A stretch of 64,000 bases of DNA from Dehalococcoidia bacterium. GTDB lineage: Bacteria; Chloroflexota; Dehalococcoidia; DSTF01; JACRBR01. Positions 4,983-49,750 of this stretch are shown here, in pieces. The notes under the pieces were generated by a model. That model saw nothing but the letters and a program-made list of their open reading frames with translations. It did not search any database and had not been told where the DNA came from. A program made the position numbers and the translations under genes. Every line of letters starts with the position of its first letter. The stretch's first letter is position 1. The stretch covers positions 124,001 to 188,000 of the forward strand of contig JAKFYB010000008.1 in the NCBI GenBank assembly GCA_021731085.1, given 5' to 3'.

Positions 4983-6041
4983 CTAACCAGCCCCGCCCGC
5001 CGGAACACCCGCAGCTTCCTTCGAAGCCACCGCAGGCCGAACACCAACGCGGCTGTATTCGAGGATCATGGCGCCCCATGCGAGGCCGCCGCCGATCGTA
5101 CACATGGCGACCTTCATGCCCTCCTCCAGGCGGCCCTCGCGGTACGCCTCGCTGAGGGCGATCGGGATCGTCGCCGAGGAGTTGTTTCCGTACTTGTGTA
5201 CTGTCGCGATGACCTTCTCGAGCGGCATGCCGAGTGCCTTCGCGGTGCCCTGCATGATGCGGAGGTTCGCCTGATGCGGCACGAAGAGGTCGATGTCATC
5301 AACCGTCAGCTCCGACTGCACGAGCGCTTCGCGGACCGCGTCCGTCATCGCGTGCACGGCCGACTTGAACATCGCCGGGCCATCCATCTGGATCATGCAC
5401 TGCTCGAGCGTCGGGCCGTTGCCGTCCTCGTCGCGCGCGGCCCCGATCCCCTCCGCCCAGAGGTGGTACTTCTTCGAGCCGTCGCTGCGCATGACGAGCC
5501 CGAGCGGCCCACCGTACTCCGCCGCTTCGAGCAGCACCGCGCCGGCGCCGTCGCCGAAGAGCACGCATGTGCCGCGGTCCTGCCAGTTGATGATGCGCGA
5601 CAGCACTTCCGTGCCGACGACGAGCACGCGCTTCGACGCGCCGGTCTGGATGAACTGCATGCCCGTCGCGAACGCCGAGAGAAAGCCGGCACAGGCTGCG
5701 GCGCAGTCCCAGCCTCCGGCGTGCGTCGCGCCGATCTTGTCCTGGATAAGTGAGGCCGTCGACGGAAAGAGCCCGTCCGGTGTCGTCGTGCCGACGAGCA
5801 CGAGGTCGATGGTCGCGGGATCGATGTCCGCGTCCTCAACCGCCATTTTCGCGGCAGCGAGACCGAGCGATGACGCCGTCTCGTCGTTGCGCGCGATGCG
5901 GCGCTCCTTGATGCCCGTGCGGTCCTGGATCCACTGGTCCGAAGTCTCGACCGTGCGCTCAAGTTCGGCGTTGGTGACGATGCGCTCAGGAAGGTAGTGC
6001 CCCAGGCCGGCGATGCGGACATTCTGCAAGCGGGATTGCAT
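4983..6041 (-). CDS. fabH: 3-oxoacyl-ACP synthase III (KAS III)
   Basis: Initiates fatty-acid synthesis by condensing an acyl-CoA primer with malonyl-ACP. 352 residues. The catalytic triad is visible: C117 in CAAACAGFLSA, H256 in VPHQANLRI, and N286 in HKYGNNSSAT. FGDGAGAVLLEA is the conserved glycine-rich segment. The C-terminal tail after LEYSRVGVRP is longer than usual by about 18 alanine/glycine-rich residues. No other fab genes adjoin it. Confidence 0.95.
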   Translation of the reverse strand: MQSRLQNVRIAGLGHYLPERIVTNAELERTVETSDQWIQDRTGIKERRIARNDETASSLGLAAAKMAVEDADIDPATIDLVLVGTTTPDGLFPSTASLIQDKIGATHAGGWDCAAACAGFLSAFATGMQFIQTGASKRVLVVGTEVLSRIINWQDRGTCVLFGDGAGAVLLEAAEYGGPLGLVMRSDGSKKYHLWAEGIGAARDEDGNGPTLEQCMIQMDGPAMFKSAVHAMTDAVREALVQSELTVDDIDLFVPHQANLRIMQGTAKALGMPLEKVIATVHKYGNNSSATIPIALSEAYREGRLEEGMKVAMCTIGGGLAWGAMILEYSRVGVRPAVASKEAAGVPAGGAG

Positions 6042-6130
6042 CCGGCCTCCCTTCCCGCCCGAAACTCAGCGTGAGCGGGCTACTGGTGAGTATAGCCAAC
6101 CCGCGCTCGCCCTCACGGCCGCTCCGTCGA

Positions 6131-6589
6131 TCAGGTCTTCGCCGTTCTCCCGGCCTCGATCTCCATGAGGTCGTTTGTGAAGTTGTAACTCATCTGGATC
6201 GGCACAACGGGTGCGCGATTCTCGTTGAAACTGTCGACGTCCCACTTGAGCTGACGGCAGTCACCCACGATCTGCTTGCGTCGTCCCTTGAACGCTACCT
6301 CCATGTGCTCCCGCGACGCCGTTCGAATGTCTCCCCAAAATACAGACTGATGGACACGGGCCGCGTGCTTCGCGCGCACCGCTCTGCCCTGTGGATCAAC
6401 AAGAGTTTCCTCGCGCATCGCGACGCTCAATTCCTCGGCGCACTGGCTGATAAGCGACGCTGGCTGAGGCTGCCACTTCCTTTCACGAACGGCCCAAGCG
6501 GCAATTTGGCGAGTGGTCGCCGGCCAATCCTGCTTGGCAGCGATGTACTCGTTAACGATGCGCTGCATCTGTTCGTTGTAGTTGCTCAT
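6131..6589 (-). CDS. Uncharacterised protein, third gene of the HigBA/ImmA module
   Basis: 152 residues, no family named with certainty. The N-terminal part (PATTRQIAAWAVRERKWQPQ) resembles a helix-turn-helix-like wing. The middle (SQCAEELSVAMREE, DPQGRAVRAKHAARV) is rich in charged helices, followed by SVFWGDIRTASREHMEVAF. No signal peptide or membrane helix. It starts 16 nt after the higA stop with no terminator between, so it is very probably co-transcribed with the toxin and antitoxin. Accessory, regulatory or effector roles are all open. Confidence 0.75.
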   Translation of the reverse strand: MSNYNEQMQRIVNEYIAAKQDWPATTRQIAAWAVRERKWQPQPASLISQCAEELSVAMREETLVDPQGRAVRAKHAARVHQSVFWGDIRTASREHMEVAFKGRRKQIVGDCRQLKWDVDSFNENRAPVVPIQMSYNFTNDLMEIEAGRTAKT

Positions 6590-6605
6590 GGTTCGCTCCC
6601 TCAGA

Positions 6606-7766
6606 TTAGGATGCCAATGGCATTCGGTGTCCCCACCCGTCTGTTAATGCTGACTGCACGATGTGTTCTCTCACGTTCACTAGCAGCTTGCGGAACTTTG
6701 AATAGTGAACTCCTCTGTTGTGCAATTGACCGACAACGATGCCGGGATGAACGCCGTGAAGCGTCGCAAAGTTTCGAATTGTGCGCTCAGAAAACAGTGG
6801 GCCTACTCGGGTGACGAAATCGTCGAGAGTCTCACCGTCTATGAGCGCTCCTTCTGCCACTTCATCAGCTTTCCTTTCGCGCTCAGGCTTGTTTTCCTTC
6901 GCCTCTCTCGCTTCACCCACCAAGTCGATATCCACCGCAGGGTCATCTTCGCGCCCATCACCATTGAAGACGTGCGCTAGTTCATGCATCAACGTGAACC
7001 AGAAATTATCGATCCTTCCATATCGAAGCGAGACGACTACGACGGGACTGCTTCGATCAAGCCAGATGCATGCGCCGTCGATTCGAGTCTTAGTCAGATG
7101 TTCGAGCACAAGGAATCGGATGCCTGCCTCAGACAACACACGAGGAACGTGACGAATCTCTGTCGGATCAGCCATGAGCAAGCGCAGGGAATCCCAAACG
7201 ACTTGCCTCGACCGTTTGTCGAAGGGACGGCTAACCGGCACAGCACGACCCAAGTGCTTGGCACGACAAATCCATGCAAGCTGGCTGGCATTGAATTGGT
7301 CGTAGCCGGTTCCCATCCGTGCCGCTGTTGCCAGAACAGGCGGCGACTCGTTCAGGTCTTGAACCTCAAGAAAGTCGAGAAGTGTCTTCTCGAGAACACT
7401 AGGATTGCTCGAAAACTCGATCCATTGGCGTTTGACCATTTCTCGAATGGGTGCTTTTGAGTAGATCCTAGCTCGGAGCCCGACGCTGGGATCAGGGGCC
7501 TGACTGCGCTTCAAGTGAAGTTGCCACGCAGAGTCAGCGTTTAGCCAAAATTCGGCGGTCGTTCCCTCGAAAGCCTGCGCGAGTCCCTTAGCTGTCTCGG
7601 GCGTAACGATCTTCTTTCCAGCAATCAACTCATTCACTAGCTGGCTTGGGCGTCCAAGAATGTCTGCAAGGTCAGCCTGGCTCCACCCGCGGTCATCCAG
7701 CGCCTCGCGAATCCAGTCGCCAGGTGGAAATACTTCGGCCGGCACTCTCTCGTTCATCACAATCAC
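6606..7766 (-). CDS. higA: HigA-type antitoxin fused to an ImmA/IrrE metallopeptidase
   Basis: 386 residues in two domains. The N-terminus (about 15-75) is an XRE/HigA helix-turn-helix: GWSQADLADILGRPSQLVNE with a following recognition helix. The C-terminal half holds a zinc-peptidase HExxH at residues 261-265 (LMHELAHVFNGDG), as in COG2856 ImmA/IrrE proteins. Such fusions are known among HigA-like antitoxins. The HTH part is expected to bind its own promoter and neutralise HigB, while the protease may cleave a regulator. Begins 3 nt after the higB stop. Confidence 0.88.
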   Translation of the reverse strand: MIVMNERVPAEVFPPGDWIREALDDRGWSQADLADILGRPSQLVNELIAGKKIVTPETAKGLAQAFEGTTAEFWLNADSAWQLHLKRSQAPDPSVGLRARIYSKAPIREMVKRQWIEFSSNPSVLEKTLLDFLEVQDLNESPPVLATAARMGTGYDQFNASQLAWICRAKHLGRAVPVSRPFDKRSRQVVWDSLRLLMADPTEIRHVPRVLSEAGIRFLVLEHLTKTRIDGACIWLDRSSPVVVVSLRYGRIDNFWFTLMHELAHVFNGDGREDDPAVDIDLVGEAREAKENKPERERKADEVAEGALIDGETLDDFVTRVGPLFSERTIRNFATLHGVHPGIVVGQLHNRGVHYSKFRKLLVNVREHIVQSALTDGWGHRMPLAS

Positions 7767-7769
7767 CCC

Positions 7770-8066
7770 TCAGTGGTAATCCGTAATCTCGCAGATGACG
7801 ACGACCTTGCTAGGTGACTCCCCCTTCAATTCCACGATCAGCCGAAACTGATCGTTTAGCCGCATTGAATATTGGCCCTCGCGATCCCCGCTCAATTTCT
7901 CAAACCTTAGCCCGGGCCACGCGCGAAATTCGCGCTCGTCGGTCGAGTACCGGATGTGAGCCACCACTCTTCGATAGCGCTTGACGATCGCAGCCGCGAA
8001 CCCAGCCGTGAACTGGCTATCCGTTTCCAATCGGTCGAGGTCATCTCGCGCAAATTGAACATCCAT
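7770..8066 (-). CDS. higB: RelE/ParE-superfamily toxin, HigB type
   Basis: 98-residue basic protein with the RelE fold pattern: a helical N-terminus (FAAAIVKRYRRVVAHIRY), then beta-strands EFRAWPGLRFEKLSGDREG, YSMRLNDQFRLIVELKG and VVVICEITDYH. The arginine in MRLNDQFRLI and the terminal DYH match mRNA-interferase active-site residues. Toxin first, antitoxin second is the HigBA order. The start at ATG 8066 lies only a few bases downstream of the predicted promoter. Confidence 0.88.
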   Translation of the reverse strand: MDVQFARDDLDRLETDSQFTAGFAAAIVKRYRRVVAHIRYSTDEREFRAWPGLRFEKLSGDREGQYSMRLNDQFRLIVELKGESPSKVVVICEITDYH

Positions 8067-8077
8067 GTCACAAACCT

Positions 8078-8106
8078 ATGTTAGGCCGGCGATCTCCAAT
8101 AGTCAA
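8078..8106 (-). promoter_or_regulatory. Predicted housekeeping promoter of higB-higA
   Basis: On the minus strand, TTGACT (8106-8101), a 17-nt spacer and TAACAT (8083-8078). Transcription would begin about 5 nt before the higB ATG, so the message would be nearly leaderless. HigA presumably represses here. Confidence 0.6.
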
Positions 8107-8153
8107 GTGCTATATTCACCCTTACTGTGAAGGTATGATTTTCAACTAGAGAC

Positions 8154-8183
8154 TTGCCCGCCTCTTCGGCCCCTTGATACAAT
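8154..8183 (+). promoter_or_regulatory. Predicted sigma-A-type promoter of the hrcA operon
   Basis: TTGCCC (8154-8159), an 18-nt spacer and TACAAT (8178-8183). The start site would fall near 8190, directly before the CIRCE element, the expected arrangement for HrcA repression. Confidence 0.65.
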
Positions 8184-8194
8184 GGCCTCAGGAC

Positions 8195-8221
8195 TTAGCA
8201 CTCGTGACTGGAGAGTGCTAA
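8195..8221 (+). promoter_or_regulatory. CIRCE operator (HrcA binding site)
   Basis: Perfect consensus: TTAGCACTC (8195-8203), a 9-nt spacer, and GAGTGCTAA (8213-8221). HrcA dimers bind this inverted repeat and repress heat-shock operons; binding relaxes when HrcA misfolds. It sits 11 nt before the hrcA ATG, between the promoter and the coding region. Confidence 0.97.
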
Positions 8222-8232
8222 TTTGAATCTGA

Positions 8233-9288
8233 ATGAGCCTTACCGAGCGCCGCGCCAAGCTGCTGAGCCTCCTGATCGGGGAGTACGTGGACTCCGCTAC
8301 CCCCGTGGGGTCGGAGGCCATGGTGCGCCGGTACGAGTTGCCGTTCTCAAGCGCCACCATCCGCAACGAGATGGCGCGGCTGGAGGAGGATGGCTACATC
8401 ACGCACCCCCACACCTCGGCCGGCCGCGTGCCCTCCGACAAGGGCTACCGCTACTACGTCGAGGCGCTGATGGAGGAGCGGGACCTGTCGGCCCAGATCA
8501 AGCAGACGATCCGCCACCAGTTCCACCAGGCGGGCCGCGAGGAGGACGAGTGGGTGCACCTGGCGGCGGCCGTGCTGGCGCGCGCCGTAGAGAACGCCGC
8601 CGTCGTGACGATGCCGAACATGGCGGAGTCGCGGCTAAAGCGCGTCGAGCTGGTGAGCATTCAGGACACGTCGGCGCTGCTCGTCGTCGTGATGCAGCAG
8701 GCGCGGGTGAAGCAGCAGGTACTCATCTTCCCGGAGCCGATGGAGCAGGACGGCCTGACGGCGATCAGCAACCACCTCAACGACGCCTTCCGCAGCCTCA
8801 GCGCGGGGGAGATCGGGCGCTCGCAGGTTCAGCTCACGCAGATGGAGTGGCACGTCGCCAACGCCGTCCGCGAGATCCTCGCCTCGACCGACGCCGGCGG
8901 CTTCGACGAGGCGGCGCTGGAAGGTATTCGGACGGTGCTGCAGAAGCCGGAGTTCGCGAGCAGCGACAAAGTGTTGAACCTGCTCGACGTGATGGAGCGC
9001 CGAAACCTCGGCAAGTACATCCCGTTCTCGGAGCTGGCCGATGGCAGCGTGACGGTGATGATCGGCGCCGAGAACGAGCAGGACGCGATGCACGACTACA
9101 GCCTCGTGATCAGCCGCTACGGCACGCCCGGCGGGATCACCGGGGCGATGGCCGTCGTCGGGCCGACGCGCATGCACTATCCGCGCACGATCAGCACCGT
9201 TCGCTTCCTTAGCGAGCTGATGGGCGAGATGCTGACGACGTTCTATGACGAACCCCCGGTCACGGAGCAGGGCGCCGGCGATAAGTGA
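8233..9288 (+). CDS. hrcA: Heat-inducible transcription repressor HrcA
   Basis: 351 residues. The N-terminal winged helix includes YVDSATPVGSEAMVRRYELP, SSATIRNEMARLEEDGYITH and PHTSAGRVPSDKGYRYYV, all diagnostic of HrcA. The later part has the GAF-like region and ends with YSLVISRYGTPGGITGAMAV and GPTRMHYPRTISTVRFLSEL. It represses its own operon through the CIRCE site just upstream. No clear Shine-Dalgarno precedes ATG 8233. Confidence 0.97.
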   Translation: MSLTERRAKLLSLLIGEYVDSATPVGSEAMVRRYELPFSSATIRNEMARLEEDGYITHPHTSAGRVPSDKGYRYYVEALMEERDLSAQIKQTIRHQFHQAGREEDEWVHLAAAVLARAVENAAVVTMPNMAESRLKRVELVSIQDTSALLVVVMQQARVKQQVLIFPEPMEQDGLTAISNHLNDAFRSLSAGEIGRSQVQLTQMEWHVANAVREILASTDAGGFDEAALEGIRTVLQKPEFASSDKVLNLLDVMERRNLGKYIPFSELADGSVTVMIGAENEQDAMHDYSLVISRYGTPGGITGAMAVVGPTRMHYPRTISTVRFLSELMGEMLTTFYDEPPVTEQGAGDK

Positions 9289-49424: not shown

Positions 49425-49463
49425 AACAAAAACGCCCTCACCCCATCGAGGGGCGAGAGCGTT
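49425..49463 (-). terminator. Regulated intrinsic terminator of the T-box leader
   Basis: On the minus strand a 14-bp stem (arms 49463-49450 and 49444-49431) with two wobble pairs, a short loop and a TTTTTGTTT run. Its left arm follows closely after the T-box sequence, so antiterminator and terminator are mutually exclusive. Confidence 0.88.
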
Positions 49464-49750
49464 GTCTCGCGGTACCACCCTGCGTGATCCTTCCCTGGAA
49501 GGATCAATCTCAGTTCCGTCACGTGCCGCTTTTGTGCGACAGATGCGGTGGGCCTGATAACGGCGCCCATCCCGTCGGAAACTACTTAGCCAGCCTCTTG
49601 GCCGTTCGGTCCGAGGCTCCCGGGTCCATTCGGTCTGTCGCGCTGCCGCCGGTTTTCACCAATCCCGGCTCTCTACAGGCTCGCCATCCAGACGTACTCT
49701 TCCCGATCATCGCCAGTGTTTTGTGCCTCGCACAGAGGGTACCCGTGGTT
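49425..49750 (-). ncRNA. T-box riboswitch, tRNA-Trp specific
   Basis: The conserved T-box AGGGTGGTACCGCG is at 49481-49468. Upstream lies a Stem I with the AAGAGTA loop-E-type motif (49701-49695). The GAATGGACC segment places a TGG (Trp) specifier at 49628-49626, followed by a terminator hairpin. Uncharged tRNA-Trp pairs with the specifier and with the T-box bulge and stabilises the antiterminator, allowing trpS and probably the trp genes beyond it to be transcribed. Total length is normal for transcriptional T-boxes. Confidence 0.93.

Follow-up and report, generated by a model that had tools for sequence, protein, structure and literature searches.

A three-gene module in the window (the whole stretch of 64,000 nucleotides that was analysed) appears, from its sequence relationships, to be a PD-lambda-2/RosmerTA-like system with a new third component, in which the second and third genes form the core. 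We refer to the genes as A (HigB), B (a HigA-ImmA fusion), and C (the third protein, of 152 aa). As the original prediction had it, the three ORFs form one module on the minus strand (Table 1), in the order A, B, C, with a gap of 3 nt between A and B and a spacer of 16 nt (6590-6605) between B and C. The accompanying claim of a single promoter ahead of the three genes held only in part. One promoter-like site was listed there, ending 11 nt ahead of the HigB ATG, and the same promoter scan listed no second minus-strand site in 5900-8300. The match is near chance level, and because the count in the region (two, against 0.8 ± 0.9 in shuffles) is near the shuffle expectation, the site is suggestive only. 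Elsewhere in the window, a T-box leader (49446-49719, minus strand, 97.4 bits) was the sole Rfam match.

Table 1. Positions of the module, its flanks, and module-bearing IS1-like elements
Feature	Sequence	Position	Strand	Remark
fabH, left border of insertion	Window	4983-6041	-	Relatives' fabH-hrcA junction
C, 152 aa, predicted winged helix (residues 1-90) and long helix (93-125)	Window	6131-6589	-	Structure model
B, HigA-type HTH and ImmA/IrrE (M78) metalloprotease domain, 386 aa, GTG start	Window	6606-7766	-	
HELAH zinc-protease motif of B, residues 261-265	Window	6972-6986	-	Conserved in relatives
HTH of B, residues 19-73	Window	7548-7712	-	PF01381 HTH_3
A, HigB-like mRNase toxin, 98 aa, ends DYH	Window	7770-8066	-	PF05015, GraT match
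Promoter-like site: -35 TTGACT (8106-8101), 17 nt, -10 TAACAT (8083-8078)	Window	8078-8106	-	9/12 matches
CIRCE-type inverted repeat before hrcA, TTAGCACTC-N9-GAGTGCTAA	Window	8195-8221		Perfect 9-nt arms
hrcA, right border of insertion	Window	8233-9288	+	Relatives' fabH-hrcA junction
IS1-like element with module	L006	3596-6965		
IS1-like element with module	L051	2542-5768		
IS1-like element with module	L071	2016-5758		
IS1-like element with module	L088	3299-5949		
IS1-like element with module	L128	1305-4229		
IS1-like element with module	L131	2130-5981		
IS1-like element with module	L145	3041-5976		

A was recognized by the Pfam model HigB-like_toxin (PF05015, 34.3 bits against a cut-off of 27) and matched GraT (6f8s) in phmmer (E=1e-8). 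Both proteins end in DYH, and the active site of GraT is described as situated around His92 (PMC6393540); we therefore read the C-terminal His as a mark of the HigB active site. A did not match any PADLOC model at E≤1, PD-Lambda-2_A included. The layout is that of type II HigBA, a HigB-family gene being followed directly, on the same strand, by a gene for a HigA-type HTH protein. B scored 31.1 bits with HTH_3, above the cut-off, and 20.0 bits with Peptidase_M78, for which the cut-off is 22. Its HExxH motif is intact, as had been claimed, in the form HELAH; residues H261, E262, H265, and E297 are invariant among 33 aligned relatives, and HExxH is found in all 48 C-bearing clusters. Over residues 6-370, B matched the PADLOC model PD-Lambda-2_B (PDLC03982) with E=5.3e-42. 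The structure model of B (pLDDT 89.3) matched HigA structures over the first 100 residues in Foldseek (best E 6.9e-5) and HigA/GraA-type chains at about residues 7-128 in VIA-align (Z 11.6-15.1). CapP (7t5t, E 0.024) was the one longer match among the best 40 Foldseek matches listed.

We next consider the identity of C. Consistent with the original prediction of a protein of no known family, Pfam and PHROGs gave no match at E≤1, and NCBIfam and PADLOC gave chance-level models only (best E 0.043 and 0.015, respectively). The expectation that C is conserved also proved right: 42 members could be aligned, with G68, R103, and N122 invariant, and the alignment points to a real conserved protein. 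When these 42 members were compared with Pfam and NCBIfam, single stray matches only were obtained. Structure prediction of C alone, one of the checks suggested at the outset, gave a confident AlphaFold model (mean pLDDT 93.1, pTM 0.80, 42 sequences), in which three helices lead into a beta wing, followed by a helix of 33 residues and a final helix. Foldseek returned no match at E≤0.001 in the PDB, the best being a winged-helix domain at E 0.22, and none at E≤0.001 among viral structure models. VIA-align matched about residues 1-90 to 50 entries at Z 6.2-8.2, winged helices being frequent among them. C is thus predicted, in a model of high confidence, to have a winged helix, a generic and common fold that does not by itself prove a function. 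No paper on C, or on IS1-like elements that carry it, came up in the open-access literature.

C has homologues on 3 plasmids, in 1 phage record, and on 29 viral contigs (33 loci, including many near-duplicates). Rather than being scattered away from HigA/ImmA genes, these homologues had B directly upstream in 32 of the 33 loci, with B-to-C gaps of -14 to +99 nt; the sole locus without B upstream was L080. This linkage bears out the view of C as part of the module. Since this first test started from C, the analysis was repeated from B. An alignment of B, with C unused as a query, fetched 79 viral loci, which were clustered at 90% identity; B counted as close when it scored 250 bits or more against a reference B, and at least 450 nt of downstream sequence were needed. 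C was next door in 40 of the 44 close-B viral clusters (the decayed C genes of L009 and L121 counted as positive), a proportion that may overstate the link because the query, 13 B proteins scanned against one viral-contig collection, was biased to C-bearing members. The clusters at 90% identity also still share ancestry. The close-B clusters without C were L104, L108, L122, and L140, and none of the 8 distant-B clusters carried C. When A is also considered, at least one of A and C is present in 57 of the 59 close-B clusters; by labels only L104 and L108 show neither, and the A label of L140, a low-complexity ORF, is doubtful. On a tree of B (65 rows), the C label requires 6 changes, against 15.2 in shuffles.

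A-B pairs without C were found in L010-L012, L018, L019, and L122. L018 and L019 belong to the window's phylum, and their B proteins are 48-49% identical to that of the window. Of 400 genomes of this phylum, only that of the window itself gave a confident match to C; C is thus rare there and was probably acquired. The genome-contig collection gave one weak match in a single scan. Three weak matches to C in genomes of the phylum (E 0.001-0.008) were dropped as evidence, as were L002, L003, and L004, beside which B was not seen. Two-gene modules do not outnumber three-gene ones in the close clade, where the profile recovered C genes missed by single-sequence searches, the broken one of L009 being an example. 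Broken C genes lie behind an intact B in L009 (5124-5357) and L121 (5130-5360).

Within the module family, conservation is weakest in HigB, and C accompanies B more faithfully than HigB does. Among the 48 C-bearing clusters (window, plasmids, phage, and viral contigs), DYH was kept in 14, a HigB without DYH was present in 10, and HigB was absent or unseen in 24, as judged with a profile built from 14 DYH-ending HigBs only, for which candidates longer than 102 aa were cut to their last 98 residues. The HigB of L079 is borderline (E=0.058, outside the cut-off of 1e-3) and is entered as none in this status table and as degenerate in the tree count, and for L138 none means not seen, there being no sequence upstream of B. 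The degenerate HigBs are full-length ORFs in the correct position. Full-length homologues without DYH occur in L053, L055, L048, L110, L050, L066, L068, L072, and L078. In Pfam, a check independent of the in-house profiles, the degenerate HigB of L050 was recognized (2.2e-6), that of L068 fell below the cut-off (3.7e-4), and those of L048 and L072 gave no HigB match. The loss of DYH does not prove inactivity, as the last His is kept in L053 (TVH), L050/L066 (DPH), and L051 (DTH). On the B tree of 65 rows, the 25 rows scored as having an intact or a degenerate HigB require at least 4 changes between these two states.

Selection was estimated by pairwise dN/dS in nine pairs, run for A and B. For A without DYH, dN/dS was 0.20 in L053/L055 (bootstrap 0.09-0.39), 0.10 in L048/L110 (0.05-0.21), and 0.06 in L050/L066 (0.02-0.14). 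The intact pair L073/L074 gave 0.05 (0.01-0.16), and L072/L079 gave 0.32 (0.20-0.71) at a dS of 1.85. The A pairs L068/L069 (nearly unchanged) and L068/L072 and L068/L079 (saturated) were uninformative, and the window module has no orthologue close enough for timing selection on its own genes. The low pairwise values indicate that several HigBs without DYH are still selected as proteins.

We also investigated where the module resides. In the window, it lies between genes that are, by their sequences, probably fabH and hrcA, and its near neighbours look like housekeeping genes. The module breaks up a gene order that relatives retain: fabH and hrcA are adjacent, with no A, B, or C, in 8 of the 14 relatives' loci (L246, L247, L251-L254, L256, and L258), and fabH was not seen within the fetched stretch in the remaining 6. 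The CIRCE-type repeat is also present in L245-L247, L251, and L253. L245, a genome of the same genus, holds a different, unrelated 450-aa ORF upstream of hrcA, so the junction may be an insertion spot. Around the window module, the best inverted pair of terminal repeats was 12 nt and not of the consensus, and an IS1-like transposase was found neither around it nor in its genome (a search run without a positive control).

At other loci, the module is carried by transposons. An IS1-like transposase gene lies divergently upstream of the module in 13 of the 48 clusters, and the two transposases checked (L006 and L145) match PF03400. Terminal repeats of the GGTAGTG type, about 20 nt long, enclose the transposase, an optional HigB, B, and C. 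Perfect 8-bp target duplications (8/8), expected by chance at 1.5e-5 per pair, were found for L006, L051, L071, L088, L128, L131, and L145. Together with the empty site in relatives, this transposon cargo identifies the module as mobile. Related IS1-like elements with 8/8 duplications and other cargo were found on an Acidiphilium plasmid (L259, 2267-4900) and a Hoeflea plasmid (L260, 1555-5778), the latter carrying a different XRE-ImmA fusion with HELAH. A RES-Xre pair considered as cargo of the Acidiphilium element was placed outside it by the repeats.

The module was then compared with known systems. PD-lambda-2, as described by Vassallo et al. 2022 (PMC9519451), joins a HigB-like protein to a HigA-peptidase, its third member being "related to a P4 phage antitoxin"; its B alone is reported to be toxic, its A to rescue, and its own C to be needed for defence against lambda. 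The window module shares its order of a HigB-like protein, an HTH-ImmA fusion, and a third protein, and B is homologous over most of its length. However, the genuine PD-Lambda-2_C proteins of L168 and L170 match PF14350 (Beta_protein, ~370 aa), whereas C is a 152-aa predicted winged helix, and A of the window belongs to PF05015 and lacks a match to PADLOC PD-Lambda-2_A. An assignment of C to PD-Lambda-2_C was rejected, as no PADLOC match was obtained for the C proteins of the window, L005, L007, L047, L130, and L145, and the hhalign probability was 0.7%. RosmerTA (RmrA/RmrT), in which ImmA-HTH proteins are described as antitoxins of defence systems with diverse toxins (PMC10440598), likewise has an HTH and ImmA hub antitoxin, swapped partners, and a link to phage defence. 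However, the RmrA models match the HTH of B only (best E 1.6e-5, residues 16-67), and neither C nor A matched RmrT in PADLOC, RmrT toxins being reported as diverse (PMC10440598).

Operons of RelE and Xre-COG2856 (Makarova et al. 2009, PMC2701414) resemble the module as a predicted three-component TA with a RelE toxin and an Xre-protease fusion, but the third party proposed in that account is an Xre repressor, and no C-like 152-aa partner figures in the passages of it that were compared. HigBAC also combines HigB, HigA, and a third gene, and is reported to be triggered by a phage lambda tail protein (PMC11980606); its third gene is described as a SecB-like chaperone, in contrast to the predicted winged helix here, where B also has a protease domain. 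A SecB-like chaperone is disfavoured for C by the predicted fold of three helices, wing, and long helix; SecB was not among the Pfam matches of the 42 C members at E≤0.01, and its absence from the fold list proves nothing. TA modules, Gp49-HigA pairs included, are described as cargo of Tn3-family transposons (PMC7157771), whereas here the elements are IS1-like, make 8-bp duplications, and carry an HTH-protease with C. On these comparisons, the module appears to be of the same kind as PD-lambda-2, with a new third component and a different HigB subfamily.

Several further neighbourhoods were observed. On plasmids of Micrococcus and Rhodococcus (L012, 2206-4089, and L016, 2216-4062), HigB-HigA/ImmA pairs that lack C adjoin multiubiquitin and ThiF-family genes of divergent orientation. 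A Shedu nuclease gene and one for type I restriction lie close to the C-bearing modules of L007 (7104-8282) and L005 (1-2558). In L057 and L058 (3935-5276), which are E. coli lambda-like prophages, HigB is accompanied by an HTH protein of 218 aa and by a third gene that encodes 134 aa.

How might the module work? We propose, at about even chances, a mobile TA-type switch around B as the hub, with A and C as its partners. Repression, neutralization, protease gating, and an anti-phage outcome are transferred here from PD-lambda-2 and RosmerTA. B, through its HigA DNA-binding domain and ImmA protease, would repress the operon and restrain its partner proteins, namely HigB (whose mRNase end is intact in the window) and C, the more constant one; either could be lost while B stays as the hub. 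The trigger would most probably be cell stress or the entry of a phage or mobile element; acting via C or the protease of B, it would shift the B-C state and switch the protease or B itself, after which growth would be halted by B or by the partner(s) set free. Should B itself be harmful, as is reported for PD-lambda-2, the selection that keeps a degenerate HigB would make sense, with HigB as the restraint on B. The phage- or stress-sensing arrangement that the original prediction considered conceivable is thus suggested by analogy to PD-lambda-2. Within this switch, C is tentatively a client or effector of B; it is possibly a sensor or trigger subunit, a somewhat lower-ranked role, and the part of co-repressor is doubtful. 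Counted against the switch are the lack of a defence-island setting in the window, the absence of C beside distant B (0/8) and in L018 and L019, and the generic fold match of C.

Other explanations were weighed against the switch. An unlikely one is a plain addiction or stabilization module, in which HigB would be the toxin, B the antitoxin, and C a regulatory accessory with no defence role. That plasmids, transposons, and a phage record carry the module is in line with this, as are the DYH of the window HigB and the A-B pairs without C; however, of the 48 C-bearing clusters, 24 have a HigB that is missing or was not seen and 10 have one without DYH, while B and C persist, which is unexpected for an addiction toxin. 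Equally improbable is a mobile-element repressor-protease switch like ImmR/ImmA of ICEBs1, in which ImmA is described as cleaving the repressor ImmR (PMC2701414, PMC10440598). B would then repress the element's own promoter, that of the divergent IS1-like transposase or of prophage genes, and C would be a co-regulator or signal input. The predicted winged helix of C and the 13 clusters with a divergent transposase are compatible with such a circuit, but the other 35 of the 48, window included, have an intact module without a transposase in the fetched stretch, and the search of the window's genome, made without a positive control, found none. That C is an independent gene, beside HigBA by chance, is very improbable: L080 is a C locus without B, whereas the 32/33 and 40/44 linkage and the short gaps refute chance co-location in the sampled collections.

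A different assignment of roles, which we consider rather doubtful, would invert the module: B and C would be the working pair, and HigB a retired toxin kept as the binding partner or restraint of B.

HTH-ImmA antitoxins recur in phage defence. The module family offers a natural experiment, in which HigB decays or vanishes while the zinc site of B and C stay. Because HigB decays and B and C persist, the paradox of PD-lambda-2, with its toxic "antitoxin" B and rescuing "toxin" A, becomes directly testable in small operons. The analysis also provides a new protein family, C, and a transposon vehicle to seek in genomes. If the inverted roles are true, the degenerate HigBs under purifying selection, the HigB-free B-C operons, and the universal HExxH would define a new protease-centred class of abortive switch, spread by IS1-like cargo transposons.
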